Below are positions 2,586 through 11,925 of a stretch of DNA of 64,000 nt, piece after piece. The position numbers and the translations under genes were made by a program. How positions within the stretch are numbered: position 1 is the first letter of the stretch; the number at the start of each line of letters is the position of its first letter. Under the pieces are notes generated by a model. The model saw only the letters and a program-made list of their open reading frames with translations. It did not search any database and was not told the DNA's origin. The stretch is taken from assembly GCA_022013695.1 (NCBI GenBank), contig JAKLPS010000024.1:124001-188000 (forward strand), in the 5' to 3' direction. This DNA is from Weeksellaceae bacterium. GTDB taxonomy: Bacteria; Bacteroidota; Bacteroidia; Flavobacteriales; Weeksellaceae.

Positions 2586-3710
2586 ATGGAGTTTTTCCTG
2601 AAGTCAGAAGACAATGATGACCGAGCGATTTTCATAACAGGAAATTTCAATAAATGGAATCCCAAAGATCCCAAATTTGAGCTGGAGAAATTGGACGTAC
2701 AGAATTATTATATTAATATCCATGATGACGATCTGAGAGACGAAGTCGAATTCAAATTCACCAAAGGCGGTTGGGAAAACGTAGAAATCGATCGGCACGA
2801 CAGCATCACCCCGAACCGAAAGGTAAAAAAAGGGACAAAAAAAGTGCAAGTAATTGTAGAGAAATGGCGCGTGAATTGGGGACCTTTCAAAAAAGAATTT
2901 TTCCCCAAAGTGGAATTGATTGACGAGGCATTTTACATCCCTCAGCTCGACAAAACCAGGAAGGTGTGGGCATTATTGCCCTTCGATTATTATGATTCCG
3001 AGGAAAGCTATCCTGTTCTCTATCTCCAAGACGCGCAAAATCTCTTCAACGAGGGTTCCGCCTTTGGAAACTGGGAAATTGATAAAAAATTAGCACTTTT
3101 GGCCGAATACGGACGAGGCGAATTGATTGTCATTGCCATCGAACATGGCGACGACGACAGAATAAAAGAATATATTTTTGACAACAATGCACTGGCAGAA
3201 GAGGCAGAAGGCAAAAAATATCTGAGGTTCGTTACGGACACCTTGAAACCCTGGGTCGATCAGAAATACAGAACCAAGAAAGATCGCGAAAACACAGGGA
3301 TAGGCGGGAGTTCGCTGGGCGCATTAATCAGCATTTACGGGGGATTTCTCTATCCGGAAGTCTATTCTAAATTATTGATTTTTTCCCCTTCACTTTGGGT
3401 AGAACCAAATAATAATTTCCCGATGATAGGATTTGCCAACCCGTTCAAAATCAAAGTGTATCTCTATGGCGGCAGAAAAGAAGGCTCCAAAATGGTAAGT
3501 AAAATCAGACAATTTGAAAAATCTCTAAAAAAATGGAGCGTTCAGAAATTGTATGATTTTCAGGTCAAAACCCATATTAATGAGCAAGGAACGCATCAGG
3601 AATTTTTCTGGTCTCAGGAATTTCCGAGAGCCGTAGAATGGCTTTACATCGATAGTTTGGAAAGTCCCGTAAAAGCCAAAAATGAATTGGAAAATAATTT
3701 TAAAACTTAA
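2586..3710 (+). CDS. Alpha/beta-hydrolase esterase with N-terminal starch-binding-like domain
   Basis: The 374-residue protein has two parts. Residues 1-95 resemble a CBM20/CBM48-type beta-sandwich (FITGNFNKWNP, then FKFTKGGWENVE), the kind found in glycogen- or starch-binding modules. Residues 110-365 form an esterase of the IroE/Fes/esterase-D type, with nucleophile elbow GGSSLGA (Ser near residue 241) and a late His in the EQGTHQEFFW region. No signal peptide is visible, so it is probably cytoplasmic. The gene stands alone, 235 bases after the GH43 gene and just before a palindromic repeat array. Substrate is unknown; a siderophore-ester hydrolase is possible but no siderophore genes are close by. 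Confidence 0.78.
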   Translation: MEFFLKSEDNDDRAIFITGNFNKWNPKDPKFELEKLDVQNYYINIHDDDLRDEVEFKFTKGGWENVEIDRHDSITPNRKVKKGTKKVQVIVEKWRVNWGPFKKEFFPKVELIDEAFYIPQLDKTRKVWALLPFDYYDSEESYPVLYLQDAQNLFNEGSAFGNWEIDKKLALLAEYGRGELIVIAIEHGDDDRIKEYIFDNNALAEEAEGKKYLRFVTDTLKPWVDQKYRTKKDRENTGIGGSSLGALISIYGGFLYPEVYSKLLIFSPSLWVEPNNNFPMIGFANPFKIKVYLYGGRKEGSKMVSKIRQFEKSLKKWSVQKLYDFQVKTHINEQGTHQEFFWSQEFPRAVEWLYIDSLESPVKAKNELENNFKT

Positions 3711-3716
3711 AAAAAA

Positions 3717-3946
3717 CAAGTCCCAGCGGGACGATTGATATACCAACATAGTAATTTATTCCTATCAAAGTAGCAAGTCCCATCGGGACGAATGATATAC
3801 CCAACATAGGAATTTATTCCTATGAAAGCAACAAGTCCTATCGGGACGATTCATATACCCAACATAGGAATTTATTCCTATGAAAAGCAACAAGTCCCAG
3901 CGGGACGATTGATATACCAACATAGGAATTTATTCCTATGGAAATA
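3717..3946. repeat. Four tandem units (57-59 bp) with two palindromes each
   Basis: Units start at 3717, 3774, 3832 and 3891. Each holds a GTCCC-NNN-GGGAC inverted repeat, then about 18 bases (ATATACCCAAC-like), then an ATAGGAAT-TT-ATTCCTAT inverted repeat with 8-base arms. Unit 1 carries a mismatch in the second palindrome. The spacing is regular but the units contain no unique spacers, so this is a REP-like array and not a CRISPR. It fills nearly the whole gap before the M17 peptidase and ends 9 bases before its start codon. Confidence 0.85.
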
Positions 3947-3954
3947 GTGAAATT

Positions 3955-5361
3955 ATGATTAAAATCTGCAACAAAAAAGAATCCACCACACAAAAGATAT
4001 TTCTGTTCGCCGAAGACGATTGGCAGCAGGAAAAATCGGATTATCCCAATATGAACCATTTTTTTAATGGAAAAACAAAAGAAGTTTTCATCAAAACAGA
4101 TTCTCAACAAATCCAATTTTTCATCGGCATCGGCAAAGAACCCATGGGCTACGAAATCCAAGCGATAGCAAACAGATTCGCTAACGATTACAAGAAAAAT
4201 CTGCAAGCCGTTCCGACTTCTATCATTTCAAAATTAGGATTGGATTTGACTGAGGAATTTTTGAAAGGTCTATTTTTGGGTACTTACTGCTACCCGTTTG
4301 AAAAATCGCATCCGTTCTGGCAGGAGAATTTTGAACTTGATATTGAAAATATTTCAGAAGATGAAGCGAAAAATTTAGCTTTAAAAACCGAAGCCCTTTG
4401 CAACGGACAATTTGCCGGAATGGAATGGCTGAACAAGCCTGCGAACCACAAAAAAGTGGACCAAATTTCAGAATTCCTGAAAACGACAGCGGAAAAATAT
4501 AATTTAGATTATAAAGTTCTAAACCGAGCAGAATCCATCAAAGAAGGATTGGGTGCTTTCGCAGCTGTTAATCAGGGAAGTTCGCAGGAAGCAGCTTTCA
4601 CGATTTTAGAATACAAATCTGCGAAGGGAAATGCGAAAACGATCGGTTTAGTAGGGAAATGTGTATTGTTCGACACAGGCGGAATCTCCATAAAACCTTC
4701 CGCAAATCTGCATTATATGAAAAGTGATATGGGCGGAGCAAGTGCGGTAATTGGCGCTTTGATTACAGCTTCGGAACTTAAACTTCCGGTGAATATCATT
4801 GCAATTTTGCCTATTACGGACAATGCAGTTTCGGAAAAAGCATATTTGCCAAGTGATGTCATAACAGCTTACAACAGAAAAACGATTGAAGTGCTGGACA
4901 CCGATGCAGAAGGCAGAATAACGCTCGCAGACGGACTTTCCTATTTATCAAAAAATTATAAAACTGATGTTTTGATTGATTTGGCAACTTTAACTGGAAG
5001 CTCAGTTCGAATGTTCGGTTACACTTGTGGCGCCTACTTTTCCAACAATGACGATTTGAAAAAATTATTGGAAAAGTCAGCAGATAAAACGAATCAGAGA
5101 ATTTGGAATCTGCCGCTTTGGGATATTTGGAAAGACGATTTCACTTCAGATGTTGCTGATTTTAAGAATATTTCGATGAAGCCTTTTGGAGATTGCATTG
5201 TTGCGGCAAAATTTTTGGAACAGTTTATAGAAGGTCATCAAAACTGGGCACATCTGGACATTGCTGGCGTTGCGTTTGGAAACGTTGGTTATGCGAAAGA
5301 TAAGGCGGCGACGGGTTACGGCGTGCAGCTCTTGTTAGATTTTATTGAGAATTACGATTAA
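3955..5361 (+). CDS. M17 (leucyl) aminopeptidase family protein
   Basis: At 468 residues it has the length of M17 aminopeptidases. The C-terminal catalytic half (about 225-460) shows the metal and catalytic motifs: VLFDTGGISIKP with the catalytic Lys, KSDMGGA, and TDAEGRITLADGL with the metal-binding Asp and Glu and the catalytic Arg. These enzymes are two-metal, usually hexameric, cytoplasmic peptidases that remove N-terminal residues from peptides. The stop is 37 bases before an ATP-grasp ligase gene on the same strand, so it may be the first gene of the ligase cluster and process its peptide substrate or product; that link is inference. A housekeeping role in peptide turnover is the alternative. 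Confidence 0.9.
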   Translation: MIKICNKKESTTQKIFLFAEDDWQQEKSDYPNMNHFFNGKTKEVFIKTDSQQIQFFIGIGKEPMGYEIQAIANRFANDYKKNLQAVPTSIISKLGLDLTEEFLKGLFLGTYCYPFEKSHPFWQENFELDIENISEDEAKNLALKTEALCNGQFAGMEWLNKPANHKKVDQISEFLKTTAEKYNLDYKVLNRAESIKEGLGAFAAVNQGSSQEAAFTILEYKSAKGNAKTIGLVGKCVLFDTGGISIKPSANLHYMKSDMGGASAVIGALITASELKLPVNIIAILPITDNAVSEKAYLPSDVITAYNRKTIEVLDTDAEGRITLADGLSYLSKNYKTDVLIDLATLTGSSVRMFGYTCGAYFSNNDDLKKLLEKSADKTNQRIWNLPLWDIWKDDFTSDVADFKNISMKPFGDCIVAAKFLEQFIEGHQNWAHLDIAGVAFGNVGYAKDKAATGYGVQLLLDFIENYD

Positions 5362-5398
5362 AAAAGACTATACTTTTTTACAAAATACAAAATTGAAA

Positions 5399-6610
5399 AT
5401 GAATATGGAAAAAACGATTGTCTGCATCTCCTGTTATTACAAAGGTTATGATTTTATGGATGAATGTAAAAAGATGGGAAACAAAGTCATTCTAATAACA
5501 TCCGAAAATCTCAAGGATAAACCGTGGCCGTGGCACGCCATAGACGAGGTTTATTATATGCCAGAACTAGAACCTTCCGTGTGGAATCTCGACCATCTTG
5601 TGCAGGGATTTGCTTATTTGATGAAAAATCACCAAATCGATGCCGTGATTGCTTTGGATGATTTCGATGTGGAGAAAGCGGCCATGATTCGCGAAACTTA
5701 CCGTATTCCAGGAATGGGACAAACGACGCACCGCTATTTCCGAGATAAACTGGCAATGCGCCAGCAGGCCAAAGACAACGGCATTTCGGTTCCGGAATTT
5801 TCATCCATTTTCAATGATGCAAAACTGCATAAATTCACGCAGGAAGTTCCAGGACCTTGGGTATTGAAGCCACGTTCCGAAGCTTCCGCCAGCGGAATCA
5901 AAAAAATAAACTCCAGCGAAGAACTGTGGCCAGCCGTTGAACATCTCGGCAATGAGCGGTATAAATTTCTTTTAGAATCCTTCAAGCCCGGCGATGTTTA
6001 TCACGTGGATTGTTTGGTCTATAACAAAAAGATCGTATTTTCCTGCTTTTCAAAATACCTCTCGCCACCGATGAAAGTGTCGCACGAAGGTGGCGTTTTC
6101 CGCACCAAAACCTTGGCAAAAGATTCCGAAGAAGCCGTTGGGTTAGAAAAAATTAACAAAGAGGTTCTGGACAAATTCGGAATTCAAAATGGGGCAACAC
6201 ACAGCGAATATATCAGGGGAATTGATGGGCAATACTACTTCCTTGAAACTTCATCAAGAGTTGGCGGTGCACACATCCCCGATATGGTAGAAGCCGCTAC
6301 CGGCGTCAATATCTGGCGAGAATGGGCCAAACTCGAAAATGCTTTGCTGGACGGAGAACAATATACAGTCGAAGAAACTCAGAAATTATTCGCAGGACTA
6401 ATCGTGGCGCTTGCCAAAGACAAACATCCAAATACCCACGACCTTCAAAATGAGGACGTTGAAAAATTTCTATCAATCGATTACCACATCGGAATTGTTT
6501 ACAAAGCAACGACCGCAGAAAAAATTCAGGAAAGATTGGATGAAGCCGCCCTAATTGTGACCGAAAGAATCCTGAATATCCTCCCGCCGCGAGACAAACC
6601 AACCAGCTAA
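5399..6610 (+). CDS. ATP-grasp carboxylate-amine ligase (A)
   Basis: This 403-residue protein has a Rossmann-like pre-ATP-grasp region (about 1-100, opening TIVCISCYYKG) and an ATP-grasp fold. Visible motifs are WVLKPRSEASASGI with the ATP-binding Lys (about residue 160) and YFLETSSRVGG, the metal-binding Glu motif of the carbamoyl-phosphate synthase / D-Ala-ligase type. Such enzymes activate a carboxylate as acyl phosphate and join it to an amine. The reading frame is open back to 5345, inside the previous gene; I chose the ATG at 5399 because it gives a normal N-terminus just before the first beta strand. It is followed after 46 bases by the esterase gene. Substrates are unknown. Confidence 0.85.
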   Translation: MNMEKTIVCISCYYKGYDFMDECKKMGNKVILITSENLKDKPWPWHAIDEVYYMPELEPSVWNLDHLVQGFAYLMKNHQIDAVIALDDFDVEKAAMIRETYRIPGMGQTTHRYFRDKLAMRQQAKDNGISVPEFSSIFNDAKLHKFTQEVPGPWVLKPRSEASASGIKKINSSEELWPAVEHLGNERYKFLLESFKPGDVYHVDCLVYNKKIVFSCFSKYLSPPMKVSHEGGVFRTKTLAKDSEEAVGLEKINKEVLDKFGIQNGATHSEYIRGIDGQYYFLETSSRVGGAHIPDMVEAATGVNIWREWAKLENALLDGEQYTVEETQKLFAGLIVALAKDKHPNTHDLQNEDVEKFLSIDYHIGIVYKATTAEKIQERLDEAALIVTERILNILPPRDKPTS

Positions 6611-6656
6611 TGATTAACAATCAACTGAAAATTAACAAACTGATAACTAAATAAAT

Positions 6657-7370
6657 ATGCCTCAAATTACACATACAGATTATTATTCACACATCCTTGG
6701 GATGAGCATCAAGGTCGAAGTCACGGGACATTTTGGTTACCCAGTCATTATGTTTCCGACTTCGCAGGGTTCTTACACTCAGAATGCGGATTTTCATTTG
6801 AACGGAAGCATTTCTTGGTTCACCGACAATGGAAAACTAAAACTTTTCAACCTCGAAACGATTGATAATCTTAGTTTCTATAACAAAAACATATCGGCGT
6901 ACGACAGAATCAGAAATTATGAGTTGTATGTTCAATTTTTGGTTCAGGAGTTCATTCCTTACATTCAGAGAACACACAATACGCATCGTGTTGCGGTTGC
7001 AGGCGCAAGTTTCGGAGGTTATCATGCTTCTAATTTTGCCTTCAGATATCCAGACTTGGTGTCGCATCTTTTCTGTCTGTCTGGCGCTTTTTCGATTCGA
7101 AATTTTATGGACGGAATTCAGGATCAACTGGTTTACTTCAATTGTCCAGATGAGTTTGTAAAAAATGACGAAGCCTGGAAATACAAACATATGCACATCG
7201 TTCATAGCACTTCCGACCGCGATATTTGTCTGGAACCAACGCGAAGAATGGCTGGAATCCTCAGCTCAAAAGGAATCAACCATTGGTATGACGAGCAGAA
7301 ATGGATAGACCACGACTGGCCGCTTTGGCGAATGGTTTTTCCGAAATTTATTGGAAGATTTTTCGGGTAA
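6657..7370 (+). CDS. Alpha/beta-hydrolase (putative esterase)
   Basis: The 237-residue protein is a single-domain serine hydrolase of the esterase-D type. The nucleophile elbow is GASFGGYH (Ser near residue 119), the acid is probably the Asp in STSDRD, and the His is in DHDWPLW near the C-terminus. No signal peptide is seen. It lies 46 bases after ATP-grasp ligase A and 55 bases before ATP-grasp ligase B. It may therefore release, trim or transfer an acyl or peptidyl group made by the ligases. That role is inferred from position only; a stand-alone esterase is the alternative. Confidence 0.8.
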   Translation: MPQITHTDYYSHILGMSIKVEVTGHFGYPVIMFPTSQGSYTQNADFHLNGSISWFTDNGKLKLFNLETIDNLSFYNKNISAYDRIRNYELYVQFLVQEFIPYIQRTHNTHRVAVAGASFGGYHASNFAFRYPDLVSHLFCLSGAFSIRNFMDGIQDQLVYFNCPDEFVKNDEAWKYKHMHIVHSTSDRDICLEPTRRMAGILSSKGINHWYDEQKWIDHDWPLWRMVFPKFIGRFFG

Positions 7371-7425
7371 CAAATTAAAGAACCGCATTTAACTTAAATA
7401 TAGAAATTTAACAACTCAACATATT

Positions 7426-8376
7426 ATGGCAAAAAAAATTGGAATTTTATTCGGAATGGAAGATACTTTTCCGTGGGCATTCATCGATAAAGTGAATAAA
7501 ATGGGTAAAGGCGAATATATCGCAGAACCTGTTCAAATAGACAAACTAGAACAAGGTGCAGATTATGGTTACGCTGTCATCATCGACAGGATTTCGCAAG
7601 ATGTCCCATTTTACAGAGCCTACCTCAAAAATGCCGCAATGAGCGGAACTTACGTCATCAACAATCCATTTTGGTGGAGCGCCGATGAGAAATTTTTCAA
7701 CAATGCGCTGATGTCCAAAATCGGAATTCCGTTGCCGAAAACCGTGTTACTTCCTTCATACGAAAGACCGACCAACACATCCGAAACATCTTTCAGAAAT
7801 CTGAAATTCCCGCACGATTGGGAATACATTTTCAACTATGTAGGATTTCCGGCGTATATGAAACCGCACGACGGCGGCGGTTGGAGAAATGTGTACCGAG
7901 TAGAAAGTCCGGAAGATCTATGGGCAAAACACGCAGAAACAGAGCAATTGGTAATGATGGTTCAGGAAGAAATTATTTTCGAAGATTATTACCGCGTTTA
8001 TTGTTTGGGCAGAAAGTATGTTCACATTATGCCTTACGAACCGAGAAATCCGCACCATTTGCGGTACGCAACCACTCACCAAACCGAAGGCGAAGCGCGT
8101 GAAGCGCTGCTAAAGACCATCACCGAATATACTTTGAAAATGAATGAAGCTTTGGGCTACGATTTCAACACAGTGGAATTTGCTGTGAGAGATGGCATTC
8201 CGTATGCAATTGATTTCTGTAATCCCGCTCCTGACGCAGACAGAAACTCCGTGGGAGAAGAAAACTTCGAATGGATTGTAGAACATTCTGCAAAATTGGC
8301 CATCGAAAAAGCCAAAGATTACAAGCCAGGAAAAGTGAATATCCAATGGGGAAAATTTGTGACCAACAAACTTTAA
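7426..8376 (+). CDS. ATP-grasp carboxylate-amine ligase (B)
   Basis: This 316-residue protein differs from ligase A in length and sequence. The N-terminal part (1-95) opens with KKIGILFGMEDTFPWAF. The ATP-grasp part shows AYMKPHDGGGWRNV with the nucleotide-binding Lys (about residue 145), MMVQEEI in the hinge, and VEFAVRDGIPYAIDFCNPAPD with the metal-binding acidic residues (about 245-265). Such proteins form amide or peptide bonds at the cost of ATP. The gene follows the esterase by 55 bases and precedes the GCS2-type ligase by 186 bases; that gap contains a structured repeat. Substrate unknown. Confidence 0.83.
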   Translation: MAKKIGILFGMEDTFPWAFIDKVNKMGKGEYIAEPVQIDKLEQGADYGYAVIIDRISQDVPFYRAYLKNAAMSGTYVINNPFWWSADEKFFNNALMSKIGIPLPKTVLLPSYERPTNTSETSFRNLKFPHDWEYIFNYVGFPAYMKPHDGGGWRNVYRVESPEDLWAKHAETEQLVMMVQEEIIFEDYYRVYCLGRKYVHIMPYEPRNPHHLRYATTHQTEGEAREALLKTITEYTLKMNEALGYDFNTVEFAVRDGIPYAIDFCNPAPDADRNSVGEENFEWIVEHSAKLAIEKAKDYKPGKVNIQWGKFVTNKL

Positions 8377-8401
8377 TATTACAATTAGACATTTTTTTAT
8401 G

Positions 8402-8505
8402 GCAGCTATTTCCGCCTTCCACTCCCAATCTTTTTTGCAGACGTTTTCAGTTTAAACAGAACTCTAAGACCATGCAAAAAAGGATTTCCGCTCAAGACGG
8501 GCTGC
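8402..8505 (+). repeat. Structured interspersed element, copy A
   Basis: The ends GCAGC (8402-8406) and GCTGC (8501-8505) pair. A five-base TATTT bulge and CCG (8412-8414) pairing with CGG (8498-8500) come next. Further in, CTTTTTTGCA (8430-8439) pairs with TGCAAAAAAG (8473-8482), closing a loop of 33 bases. The same layout occurs at 14001-14106 on the minus strand and at 63680-63742 on the plus strand. This copy lies between two genes of the ligase cluster. It may be a non-coding RNA, a REP-like element or a small non-autonomous mobile element; the Flavo-1 RNA motif is one known flavobacterial family to compare. Confidence 0.72.
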
Positions 8506-8562
8506 AACAATTCGGTGTAATAAAAAACCAAGAACACTAACTAACTTTCAAACACAAATAAT

Positions 8563-9666
8563 ATGCACAGATTTACGATAGGTGTAGAAGAAGAATATCA
8601 GATCATCGATGCCGAATCCCGGGATTTGGTTTCCCATGTTTCAAAAATCATCGAAGGTGGAAAAGCCGTTCTCAGCGAAAATCTGAAGCACGAGATGCAC
8701 GAATCTGTGGTCGAAATGGAAACGGGAATCTGCGAAAACATCCAGCAGGTAAGGCAGGAACTCACCAATCTTAGGAGACATCTCGTGAAAACCGCTCACG
8801 AGCAAGGTCTGCGCGTTGCCGGCGGCGGCACGCATCCATTTTCCGATTGGAAAGATAATCTGATCACAAAAGATGCCCGCTACGACAAGATCGTTAGCGA
8901 TATGGGCGATGTTGCCCGATCCAATTTGATCTTCGGATTGCACGTTCATATTGGTATTCCCGATCGGGAAGAAGGCATCAGAATTCAAAACGTGATGCGC
9001 TATTTCTTGCCGCACGTTTATGCTTTGTCCACCAATTCGCCATTCTGGGTAGGAAGAATGACGGGGTTCAAGTCTTACAGACAGGAAGTCTTTGCCAAAT
9101 TCCCCAGAACCGGATTGCCAAGTTATTTCGGAAGCCTGGCAGAGTTTGACGCTTACGTCAACCTGATGGTAAAAACCGGAACGATTGATAATGCTAAAAA
9201 AATCTGGTGGGATCTGCGCGTTCATCCCTTCTACCCGACCATCGAATTCAGAATCTGCGATATGCCGATGACGATAGACGAAACAGTCTGTCTGGCTGCA
9301 ATTATGCAGGCTTTGGTAGCAAAAATCTACCAGATGCACCAGCAAAACACCAGCTACAGAAGCTACAGAAGGCTACTATTGACCGAAAATAAATGGCGCG
9401 CTTCCAAAGACGGAATCGATGCTCATCTAATCGATTTTGGAAAAGAAGCCAGTGTTCCGTACAGAGATCTTTTGGAGGAATTACTAGCTTTTATAGATGA
9501 TGTTGTGGACGAATTGGGCTGCAGAAAAGAAGTAGAATATGCCCGAGAAATTTGCAAAATAGGAACTGGTGCAGACCGTCAGCTGAAAGTGTTTGAAGAA
9601 ACGGGCGGCGACTTGAAAAAAGTGGTAGATTATATGATTTATGAAACTGAAAAAGGACTCATTTAA
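8563..9666 (+). CDS. Carboxylate-amine ligase, YbdK / glutamate-cysteine ligase type 2 family
   Basis: The 367-residue product has the typical length of YbdK-type GCS2 ligases. It begins FTIGVEEEYQII, which holds the acidic metal-binding cluster, and has HVHIGIPD near residue 127, a family hallmark. Family members show weak glutamate-cysteine ligase activity in vitro in E. coli, but many have unknown natural substrates. Here it sits in a run of ATP-grasp ligases, a glutamine amidotransferase and an esterase, which favours a role in making a peptide-like compound rather than ordinary glutathione synthesis. No glutathione synthetase gene is beside it. Confidence 0.88.
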   Translation: MHRFTIGVEEEYQIIDAESRDLVSHVSKIIEGGKAVLSENLKHEMHESVVEMETGICENIQQVRQELTNLRRHLVKTAHEQGLRVAGGGTHPFSDWKDNLITKDARYDKIVSDMGDVARSNLIFGLHVHIGIPDREEGIRIQNVMRYFLPHVYALSTNSPFWVGRMTGFKSYRQEVFAKFPRTGLPSYFGSLAEFDAYVNLMVKTGTIDNAKKIWWDLRVHPFYPTIEFRICDMPMTIDETVCLAAIMQALVAKIYQMHQQNTSYRSYRRLLLTENKWRASKDGIDAHLIDFGKEASVPYRDLLEELLAFIDDVVDELGCRKEVEYAREICKIGTGADRQLKVFEETGGDLKKVVDYMIYETEKGLI

Positions 9667-9745
9667 AAATAAATTGTTAATGATGAACGGGTCTAATAAT
9701 TCAAAACTCTCTCTATTTTAAAATTCTTAATTTTGTTTAAATTTA

Positions 9746-10588
9746 ATGAATATGAATAACAATGATGTTAGAATTGCGCTTTTGGATATGAACAACAACC
9801 ATCCCAATCAAGGAATGCGTAATCTCAAAGAAATCTCCAAAGCGTTTCAGGAGCAATCCAGCCACAACGTTTCAGTAGAAATCTTCGATGTCCGATATAA
9901 GAATGAGATGCCAAACGTGGCTGATTTTGATGTGTTTCTGTCATCCGGCGGACCAGGGAATCCTCACCGCGAAGGCTATCAATGGGAAAATAAATACGCC
10001 GACTTCCTAACTCAAATTTGGCAACATAATCAACAAAACGAGCAGAAAAAATATGCTTTTTTGGTGTGTCATTCGTTTCAATTGGCAGTGATCCATTTCA
10101 AAATTGCGAATGTTTGCAAAAGAAAATCCTACTCTTTTGGTGTGATGCCTATTCACAAATCTGAGGATGGCGAAAAAGAATTTCTGTTCAAAAACCTTCC
10201 CGAACCTTTCTACGCGGTGGACTCCAGAGGATATCAATGCATCGAACCAAACGATGAGAAAATAAACGGTCTTGGAATGAAAATCGTGGCGCTGGAAAAA
10301 TACCGCCCGACAGTGCATCTGGAAAGAGCGCTGATGGCCATTCGTTTTTCTGAGGAGATCTTCGGAACGCAATTTCATCCGGAAGCCGATCCCCAAGGAT
10401 TCATCAAAAATCTGGAGGATGACAAAAATAAATCCGCAATGATCGAAACTTTCGGCATCGAGAAATATCTGGAAACCATCGACAGGATGAATGATGAAGA
10501 CAAAATCATTTTAACACAAGCGCAGATTATTCCAAGATTTCTGACATTTGCGTCTGAACAGATTACTAAAAAATTGGCTTTCAGCTAA
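9746..10588 (+). CDS. Class I glutamine amidotransferase-like protein
   Basis: This 280-residue protein has a class I glutaminase fold. The nucleophile elbow is LVCHSFQLA (Cys near residue 109) and the His-Glu pair is in TQFHPEADPQG (about residues 209-213). The elbow differs from the usual CxGxQ in having Ser-Phe before Gln. Class I amidotransferases hydrolyse glutamine and pass ammonia to a partner synthase; some relatives hydrolyse gamma-glutamyl bonds instead. The neighbouring ligases are plausible partners. A second ATG lies two codons downstream and could be the real start. It is 79 bases after the GCS2-type gene. Confidence 0.83.
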   Translation: MNMNNNDVRIALLDMNNNHPNQGMRNLKEISKAFQEQSSHNVSVEIFDVRYKNEMPNVADFDVFLSSGGPGNPHREGYQWENKYADFLTQIWQHNQQNEQKKYAFLVCHSFQLAVIHFKIANVCKRKSYSFGVMPIHKSEDGEKEFLFKNLPEPFYAVDSRGYQCIEPNDEKINGLGMKIVALEKYRPTVHLERALMAIRFSEEIFGTQFHPEADPQGFIKNLEDDKNKSAMIETFGIEKYLETIDRMNDEDKIILTQAQIIPRFLTFASEQITKKLAFS

Positions 10589-10743
10589 AAAACATCTCCA
10601 TTTAAACCAGAAAACTCACCAAAGCTTTCTATCAATAGTGATTTTAAAAGTTCAAAAAAGTCTAATCTACAACTATTCTTTTTTCATCTCAAAAAATAAC
10701 ATTTTAGCTTTTGTGACTTTTAGGGTGAATAAAAAATTAAATT

Positions 10744-11925
10744 ATGATTCCCAAATACAGAACGCAATTCAATCAAGAATTTTCTCAGGCAAAATATGAG
10801 AAAACTAATGCGCTGATCAAAGAAAAATGCGGCGAAGAAGCCGCTTTCCGACTGTCCGAAAGCCCTATTTTTCTTACCAATGATTTTGGGAACAAGCTGG
10901 ATGACGCTTCACAATCCATTATTTCACAGATCAAAAATATGTCTGATGAGGAATTGAGCAAAGCCATTCCTGCGAATTGCAAAGTCCCGAATGACACCAA
11001 AAAACCACATTTTCTTGCCGTCGATTTTGGAATTTGCCAAGATCAAAATGGCGAAATCATTCCGCAGTTGATAGAGTTGCAGGCCTTCCCAAGTTTGTTT
11101 GCTTTCCAGAGATTGTTTGAGGAAGTGATTACAGAAGTCTACCCTTTCCTTAATGATTTGAAGACGTCACTTTCGCAGGAAGAATTTGTTGAAAAGTTGA
11201 AAGCCATAATTGTCGGAAACGAGAATCCTGAGAATGTCATTTTGCTGGAGATCTATCCCGAAAAGCAGAAAACAGCTGTTGATTTTGCAATGACAGAAAA
11301 ATTGCTGGGAATCAAGACGGTTTGTCTTACGAAAGTCAGAAAACAGGGTAAAAAATTATTCTACGAAAAAGATGGAAAATTAATTCCAGTCAACCGTATT
11401 TACAACCGCATAATTTTTGACGAACTCGACAAAATCGAAGGTTTAGAAACAGAGTTTGATTTTCGAGAAGATGTGGATGTAGAATGGATCACGCATCCGA
11501 ACTGGTTTTTCAAGATTTCAAAATATATTCTTCCCAAACTGAAACACGAGTTTGTCCCGAAAAGTTATTTTTTATCCGATTTTCCTGAAACTGAGGCTTT
11601 GGAAAACTTTGTTTTAAAACCATTATTTTCTTTTGCAGGAAGCGGTGTAAATCTTAATCCGACACAAGAAATAATCGATAAAATAGAAGATAAAGAAAAT
11701 TACATCCTCCAAAGGAAAGTGACTTACGCTCCACTTTTTAAAGACATCAACGGCGAATTTTCTAAAGCTGAGATCCGTTTGCTTTTTGGTTGGGATCCGA
11801 AAAAAGAAGATCCGGAATTATTGGTCAATCTTGTGCGGATGACGAAAGCATCGATGGTGAATGTGGATTTCAATAAGAAAGATGCAATCTGGATTGGTAG
11901 TTCTATGGCGTTTTTTGAAAGCTAA
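10744..11925 (+). CDS. Uncharacterised protein, possibly a permuted ATP-grasp (glutathionylspermidine-synthase-like) ligase
   Basis: I do not firmly recognise this 393-residue protein. Two features recall the C-terminal synthetase domain of glutathionylspermidine synthase. One is LIELQAFPSLFAFQ (about residues 118-131), like the Glu-rich metal motif. The other is FVLKPLFSFAGSGVNL (about residues 289-304), like the Lys-containing nucleotide loop, followed by ILQRKVTYAPLF as a possible hinge. It is the last gene of the co-directional cluster, 155 bases after the amidotransferase, and converges with a HAD phosphatase gene 9 bases away. If the reading is right, the cluster has three ATP-grasp ligases. 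Confidence 0.6.
   Translation: MIPKYRTQFNQEFSQAKYEKTNALIKEKCGEEAAFRLSESPIFLTNDFGNKLDDASQSIISQIKNMSDEELSKAIPANCKVPNDTKKPHFLAVDFGICQDQNGEIIPQLIELQAFPSLFAFQRLFEEVITEVYPFLNDLKTSLSQEEFVEKLKAIIVGNENPENVILLEIYPEKQKTAVDFAMTEKLLGIKTVCLTKVRKQGKKLFYEKDGKLIPVNRIYNRIIFDELDKIEGLETEFDFREDVDVEWITHPNWFFKISKYILPKLKHEFVPKSYFLSDFPETEALENFVLKPLFSFAGSGVNLNPTQEIIDKIEDKENYILQRKVTYAPLFKDINGEFSKAEIRLLFGWDPKKEDPELLVNLVRMTKASMVNVDFNKKDAIWIGSSMAFFES

Follow-up and report, generated by a model that had tools for sequence, protein, structure and literature searches.

A stretch of 64,000 nucleotides from a Weeksellaceae bacterium (GenBank assembly GCA_022013695.1, contig JAKLPS010000024.1, positions 124,001–188,000; hereafter the window) carries an operon of eight plus-strand genes, which we label in order E0, M17, AGA, EST, AGB, YBDK, GAT and AGC. 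It is very probable that their products act jointly on a single small peptide-like molecule. In our view the operon is best read, with a probability of about 0.55, as a single pathway inside the cell for making, trimming and perhaps recycling a small peptide-like amide of non-ribosomal origin; that there is a single pathway is well supported, and its chemistry we infer. The original prediction, made from the letters of the window, had placed seven genes on one strand, and all seven are confirmed on the plus strand between positions 3955 and 11925. To these we add E0 (2586–3710), a PF00756 esterase gene, as the first gene of the operon. The nearest named relatives, among the matches listed in a genome scan with AGB, are Chryseobacterium and Epilithonimonas.

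Gene order and co-occurrence in the Bacteroidota

A genome scan with an alignment of AGB, the anchor gene and most conserved member of the cluster, found at least 584 relatives, and gene order was counted in the best 80 named loci, all of which are from Bacteroidota by title. The core EST–AGB–YBDK–GAT–AGC is present in one order and on one strand in 69 of these 80 loci, with median gaps between neighbouring genes of 12–48 bp. Among the remaining 11, five loci end at contig edges (L099, L113, L119, L121 and L128) and six depart from the core order (L075, L086, L092, L098, L100 and L130). The original prediction was said to depend on homologues being grouped in other genomes and on conserved ligase active sites; the first is evident from this gene order and the second from the alignments described below, in which the motifs are kept.

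M17 and AGA lie immediately 5' of the core in 26 of the 27 loci that we refer to as Weeksellaceae (L052–L077 and L079, with L054 titled Flavobacteriaceae). Outside this group, in the other 53 of the 80 loci, an AGA match is found within 10 kb in seven, and in five of these it is on the opposite strand. Since the M17–AGA pair is near-constant in the Weeksellaceae and rare elsewhere, the eight genes form two modules, a core of EST, AGB, YBDK, GAT and AGC and a second module of esterase, M17 and AGA. The single seven-gene unit originally proposed is right in that the genes are conserved together, but it divides into two separable modules and gains an eighth gene. We regard E0 as a member of the operon because it precedes M17 in 22 of the 27 Weeksellaceae loci and the gap between the two has a median of 12 bp (28 loci). 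In the window this gap is instead occupied by a tandem repeat (3709–3947, no strand) consisting of about four copies of a unit of about 58 bp with two palindromes, which looks like a sequence inserted within the operon.

A wider set of 118 loci was also examined, of which the 116 with an AGB open reading frame (ORF) called were tallied (L114 and L150 were excluded); some loci in this set, from genomes with unnamed records, duplicate named ones. In many loci outside the Weeksellaceae an extra esterase gene, E1, adjoins the core and is divergent from EST, and the exact order of divergent E1 followed by EST, AGB, YBDK, GAT and AGC is found in 36 of the 116 loci, some of them duplicates. We note that several cluster genes of L079 (Chryseobacterium sp. 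E1) are split into two matches, perhaps as a result of frameshifts or sequencing errors, and that L182 (G119:C60:1-12000), a locus with the order YBDK–GAT–AGC in a genome without an AGB match, is possibly a decaying copy.

Co-occurrence was assessed in a sample of 296 Bacteroidota genomes using strong matches only (AGB to E 1e-60, AGA to E 1e-100; GAT was searched at E 1e-30). Such matches were found in 108 genomes for AGB, 92 for AGC, 70 for GAT and 66 for AGA; at the looser value of E 0.001 the counts are 127 for AGB and 80 for AGA. Throughout the phylum the partner genes depend on AGB, which is present in 89 of the 92 genomes with AGC, 69 of the 70 with GAT and all 66 with AGA. In 40 of the 89 AGC genomes and 52 of the 66 AGA genomes the pair is unlinked, that is, not within 20 kb on one contig. 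GAT and AGC are found together elsewhere in genomes whose AGB locus lacks both (Runella G556 and G557; family f7, G051 and G021), and AGC is missing from 15 of the 70 GAT genomes. In genus g3 the four genomes lacking AGB also lack AGC, while G222 (locus L046) has the cluster. A chance neighbourhood is ruled out by the conserved order together with co-occurrence even when the genes are unlinked.

Several observations weigh against a single shared pathway. The Fisher P value for each AGB pairing (at most 2e-37) ignores shared ancestry. AGC occurs without an AGB match in G119, G423 and G490, the first of which also has GAT and YBDK, and AGB occurs with neither GAT nor AGC in four of its 108 genomes, which hold weaker strong matches that may be paralogues. 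YBDK is absent from the locus in L086 and L130, and in eight of the 116 loci, as well as in further distant loci, AGB has no other labelled cluster gene nearby. M17 may double as the general leucyl aminopeptidase of the cell, since it is the sole PF00883 match in the host genome. Finally, no experimental substrate or product of the cluster was found in the literature.

AGB and the nature of the product

AGB (7426–8376) is an ATP-grasp ligase distantly resembling RimK and LysX. It scores 32.9 bits against the RimK-family model TIGR00768, under the cut-off of 143.4, and its likeness to LysX is also below cut-off; in the Protein Data Bank (PDB) it has only weak sequence matches, the best being biotin carboxylase (E 7.3e-5). 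By these scores AGB is related to the RimK-family α-L-glutamate ligases and is not a member of that family. Comparison of the window proteins with loci outside the family gives median identities, which include some duplicate loci, of 69% for AGB (n = 59), 61% for YBDK (60), 50% for E0 (1), 46% for AGC (55), 45% for AGA (8), 44% for EST (61), 44% for GAT (56) and 39% for M17 (6). D-Ala-D-Ala ligase, which belongs to the superfamily of AGB and acts in cell-wall synthesis, served as a comparator. The identity of AGB is higher than that of the comparator in 15 of 16 genomes, the exception being G272, with medians of 72 and 54.5%, respectively.

Because AGB is more conserved than D-Ala-D-Ala ligase, an ordinary constituent of the cell is favoured as the product. 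The slow evolution of AGB would favour a fixed primary metabolite, such as a cofactor, a solute or a stress metabolite, over a variable weapon; to our knowledge, weapon-type secondary metabolism rarely shows such high conservation. We tentatively suggest, at somewhat less than even odds, that an AGB-centred pathway makes a so-far unrecognised primary metabolite of the Bacteroidota, which would be peptide-like and serve as a cofactor, a solute or a stress compound. On the same tentative footing, some steps of such a pathway might be swappable: a circularly permuted ATP-grasp protein might stand in for AGC and YBDK, an M29 peptidase for the glutamine amidotransferase (GATase), and the second module may be linked or unlinked. 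AGB, found in roughly one third of the genomes sampled (108 of 296), is nearly always there when its partner genes are, and it should make something that those cells need; if the product has indeed escaped recognition, metabolic maps lack a compound that is common in a major phylum. The genomes of genus g3, one with the cluster and four without AGB and AGC, are natural pairs for comparative metabolomics.

The relationships of AGB also bear on a different role, in which the protein, like enzymes of the RimK or tubulin-ligase type, tags a protein, an RNA or a cofactor and the peptidases and esterases trim the tag. Ligases of the RimK/LysX/MptN type are the best named relatives of AGB, and their substrates are a protein, a carrier or a cofactor; hydrolase genes accompany the ligases in most multi-gene loci, and the extreme conservation of AGB would suit such a role. 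We nevertheless consider modification of a macromolecule unlikely, as several ligases of unrelated folds exceed what a tag needs and the relatives of AGA and AGC use free amino acids or small acids. Nor do the gaps between the cluster genes hold a small protein gene shared across lineages: no small ORF of this kind was found there, no graspetide-type precursor is conserved across lineages in these gaps (the rest of the genome was not searched for precursors) and no LysW/ArgW-type small acidic carrier is conserved across lineages in them (the whole genome was not searched for a carrier). Candidate ORF groups common to five or six loci came from EST–YBDK gaps, in which AGB itself lies wherever it had been dropped from the gene set. 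A 91-residue ORF between AGA and EST is confined to four Chryseobacterium-type loci.

Enzymes of the two modules

Active-site motifs were assessed in alignments of 29–93 members per protein, from which incomplete, over-long and edge-cut ORFs were left out (four for E0, three each for M17 and EST, six for AGB, two each for YBDK and AGC, one for GAT and none for AGA). The motifs are conserved at 97% or more. Catalytic residues were assigned by likeness to known motifs, and those of M17 by residue-by-residue comparison with a solved enzyme; on this basis of likeness and conservation we accept the earlier claim that the motifs needed for catalysis are visible.

YBDK (8563–9666) is a YbdK-family carboxylate-amine ligase of the GCS2 fold. 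It matches PF04107 with 225 bits and passes both YbdK-family models, TIGR02050 (308 versus 176 bits) and NF010039 (535 versus 371 bits). AGC (10744–11925) is an acid-amine ligase that scores 15.5 bits against PF03738, below the gathering cut-off of 29.3. Its predicted model (mean pLDDT 90.7) aligns over the whole chain with YgiC (7uk8; VIA-align Z 25.4, 3.5 Å over 342 residues), with Z values of 22–25 to glutathionylspermidine synthetase entries and 19–24 to glutathione synthetases. The model thus predicts for AGC the fold of glutathionylspermidine synthetase and eukaryotic glutathione synthetase.

GAT (9746–10588) is a stand-alone protein of the class I glutamine-amidotransferase fold (PF00117, 42.4 versus 22.8 bits). 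Cys108, His211 and Glu213 are invariant in the 31 rows of its alignment and are the likely catalytic triad. Its predicted model (pLDDT 93.0) superposes on the stand-alone GATase 1o1y with a Z of 23.4 and on γ-glutamyl peptidase 1 from Arabidopsis (9k7i) with a Z of 22.2. The small α/β-hydrolase EST (6657–7370) matches PF00756 with 42.7 bits (cut-off 22), and Ser118, Asp189 and His219 are its likely triad.

In the pathway that we favour, YBDK would make an amide, probably a γ-glutamyl amide, and AGC would couple the acid product of YBDK to another amine or amino acid. A further residue may be added by AGB, or AGB may act on a shared intermediate. GAT, judged by its closest folds, may remove the γ-glutamyl group or supply ammonia, and EST and the other esterases may deprotect or release. 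This γ-glutamyl build-and-cleave scheme for YBDK, AGC and GAT draws on folds and on knowledge of the families.

The same three proteins would fit a glutathione-like thiol pathway by fold and family, with YBDK as γ-glutamylcysteine ligase, AGC as a eukaryotic-type glutathione synthetase and GAT as a γ-glutamyl peptidase. We regard this as very improbable because the host encodes BshC, an enzyme of bacillithiol synthesis (BshA and BshB were outside the search); a passage in PMC6282198 reports N-methyl-bacillithiol, or the bacillithiol genes, from Bacteroidetes. Moreover, YBDK scores far under the cyanobacterial GshA model TIGR02048 (71 versus 249 bits) and does not qualify as a member, and EST, AGB, AGA and M17 would be left without an explanation.

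The original prediction took GAT to be an ammonia donor. An ammonia-supplying GAT would give a product with a terminal amide, and the PF00117 match, the Cys-His-Glu residues in the alignment and a fold that also matches true amidotransferases are all consistent with this. However, GAT stands alone, with no fused synthase domain, and γ-glutamyl peptidase 1 is among its closest folds, with a Z value near that of the best stand-alone GATase. In L144, L145 and L146, which represent three families, the usual place of GAT between YBDK and AGC is taken by an M29-type peptidase (PF02073), and GAT is absent throughout the genomes of these loci. Ten other genomes lacking GAT were examined and contain no match to this peptidase, and exchange of GAT for an M29 peptidase is therefore not a general rule. 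Ammonia supply, which may be a sub-case of the pathway that we favour, is in our judgement doubtful, though it is the likeliest of the alternatives weighed here. The earlier proposal of stepwise peptide-like synthesis thus still stands as the best reading, while the ammonia donor within it is insecure. It had also counted two hydrolases; we count three besides the GATase.

YBDK may likewise be replaced. In L132–L135 and L149 a protein of 451–474 residues lies between AGB and GAT in the place of YBDK. Against the circularly permuted ATP-grasp family PF14403 (cut-off 32) it scores 37.3 bits in L132, which passes, 31.6 in L149 and 24.3 in L135. In L132–L135 another esterase gene lies 3' of GAT, and L185 has the same order.

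AGA (5399–6610; the search began at 5393, two codons 5' of the likely ATG) is an ATP-grasp ligase whose nearest relatives are L-amino acid (dipeptide) ligases. It scores 34.1 bits against PF13535 (cut-off 27), and positions 72–310 of its profile align with the L-amino acid ligase 4wd3 at E 3.4e-23. Its motifs are conserved in an alignment of 41 members. By domain and profile AGA would be classed as an L-amino acid ligase; it lies far under the equivalog cut-off for dapdiamide synthase (36.7 versus 840 bits). M17 (3955–5361) is a leucyl-aminopeptidase-type metallopeptidase (PF00883, 335 versus 25 bits), and its motifs GK, FDTGG, MKSDM and TDAEGR align residue by residue with the metal-binding and catalytic residues of the solved enzyme 6ome. 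E0 scores 81.4 bits against PF00756 and has an N-terminal region of about 110 residues with no Pfam match. AGA and M17 may constitute a second, separable module in which a dipeptide is made or edited for use in the AGB step.

Neighbouring genes and known systems

Neighbouring genes were surveyed in the 53 loci outside the Weeksellaceae group. In 11 of them, all Dyadobacter-type loci (L087, L090–L092, L095, L097, L102–L105 and L112), an ammonium transporter gene (assigned to PF00909 by a scan in L102) is found no more than 10 kb from the core, and a sodium:solute symporter gene is nearby in six of the 53. Each is confined to one lineage group and neither is phylum-wide. The original prediction noted the absence of a carrier, a regulator and a transporter; this agrees with the window and with the survey of gaps, but some lineages do have these transporters nearby. 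An aminotransferase gene is beside the core in 15 of the 53 loci and an acyl-CoA-reductase-like gene (named by eye) in 13, mostly in Dyadobacter and its relatives.

The transporter is of interest for a scavenging route. In the Puu pathway amines are scavenged via γ-glutamylation, and here YBDK might γ-glutamylate amines that would then be processed, and released by GAT, a ligase and a possible γ-glutamyl hydrolase being encoded in the same operon and the ammonium transporter being close by in the 11 Dyadobacter-type loci. The restriction of that transporter to one lineage group argues against this, as does the lack, among the neighbouring gene groups listed, of an oxidoreductase that accompanies the core throughout the phylum, and three more ligases would be left without a function. 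We give a Puu-like route little credence.

In family f38 (L137, L139 and L156–L161) AGB is 5' of a histidine-ammonia-lyase-like HutH gene. An AGB ORF was called in six of these loci; in five the two genes adjoin, and in L158 one ORF separates them. In L157 and L160 HutH is there and the AGB ORF is uncalled. Other neighbours are shared too in this family, and the arrangement may be ordinary synteny.

A known defence system, phage origin and plasmid spread were each considered for the cluster and rejected. At E 0.001 none of the eight proteins is matched by a PADLOC model, and the three ATP-grasp proteins, to which the phage-family scan was confined, match no PHROG; a search of 72,556 plasmid records with AGB gave nothing at E 1e-5. 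Homologues of YbdK are found in 72 plasmid records, with identities of at most 38.9% among the matches listed. In three of these records that were inspected there is no ATP-grasp or GATase annotation near YbdK; a Paracoccus plasmid copy has an α/β-hydrolase gene two genes away.

Comparison with characterised proteins places each enzyme near a known system from which it also differs. YBDK matches YbdK from Escherichia coli (1r8g) and its homologue 1tt4 over nearly its entire length, but lies here in an operon of ligases. AGC shares a whole-chain fold with YgiC/YjfC and glutathionylspermidine synthetase (7uk8, 7uk6 and 2io7), but is only about 14% identical to them, falls under the PF03738 cut-off and lacks the amidase domain. 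The profile of AGA matches 4wd3, one of the L-amino acid ligases (with BL00235 and BacD); in contrast to these, the operon of AGA also includes M17 and an esterase. The GAT model resembles γ-glutamyl peptidase 1 and stand-alone class I GATases (9k7i, 1o1y and 3l7n; Z 22.0–23.4) and keeps their Cys-His-Glu residues, but its activity is a prediction at 13–16% identity, and homoserine succinyltransferases (2ghr) are nearly as close (Z 22.0). We found no description of this cluster among the titles and abstracts surveyed, although a prior mention in the survey of Iyer et al. 2009 (cited in PMC4431377) is possible. That survey reportedly predicted neighbourhoods in which amidoligase genes of the ATP-grasp and GCS2 types occur with peptidase genes. 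Such neighbourhoods resemble the present operon in combining several ligases of different folds with peptidases and in having neither a non-ribosomal peptide synthetase nor a ribosomal precursor.

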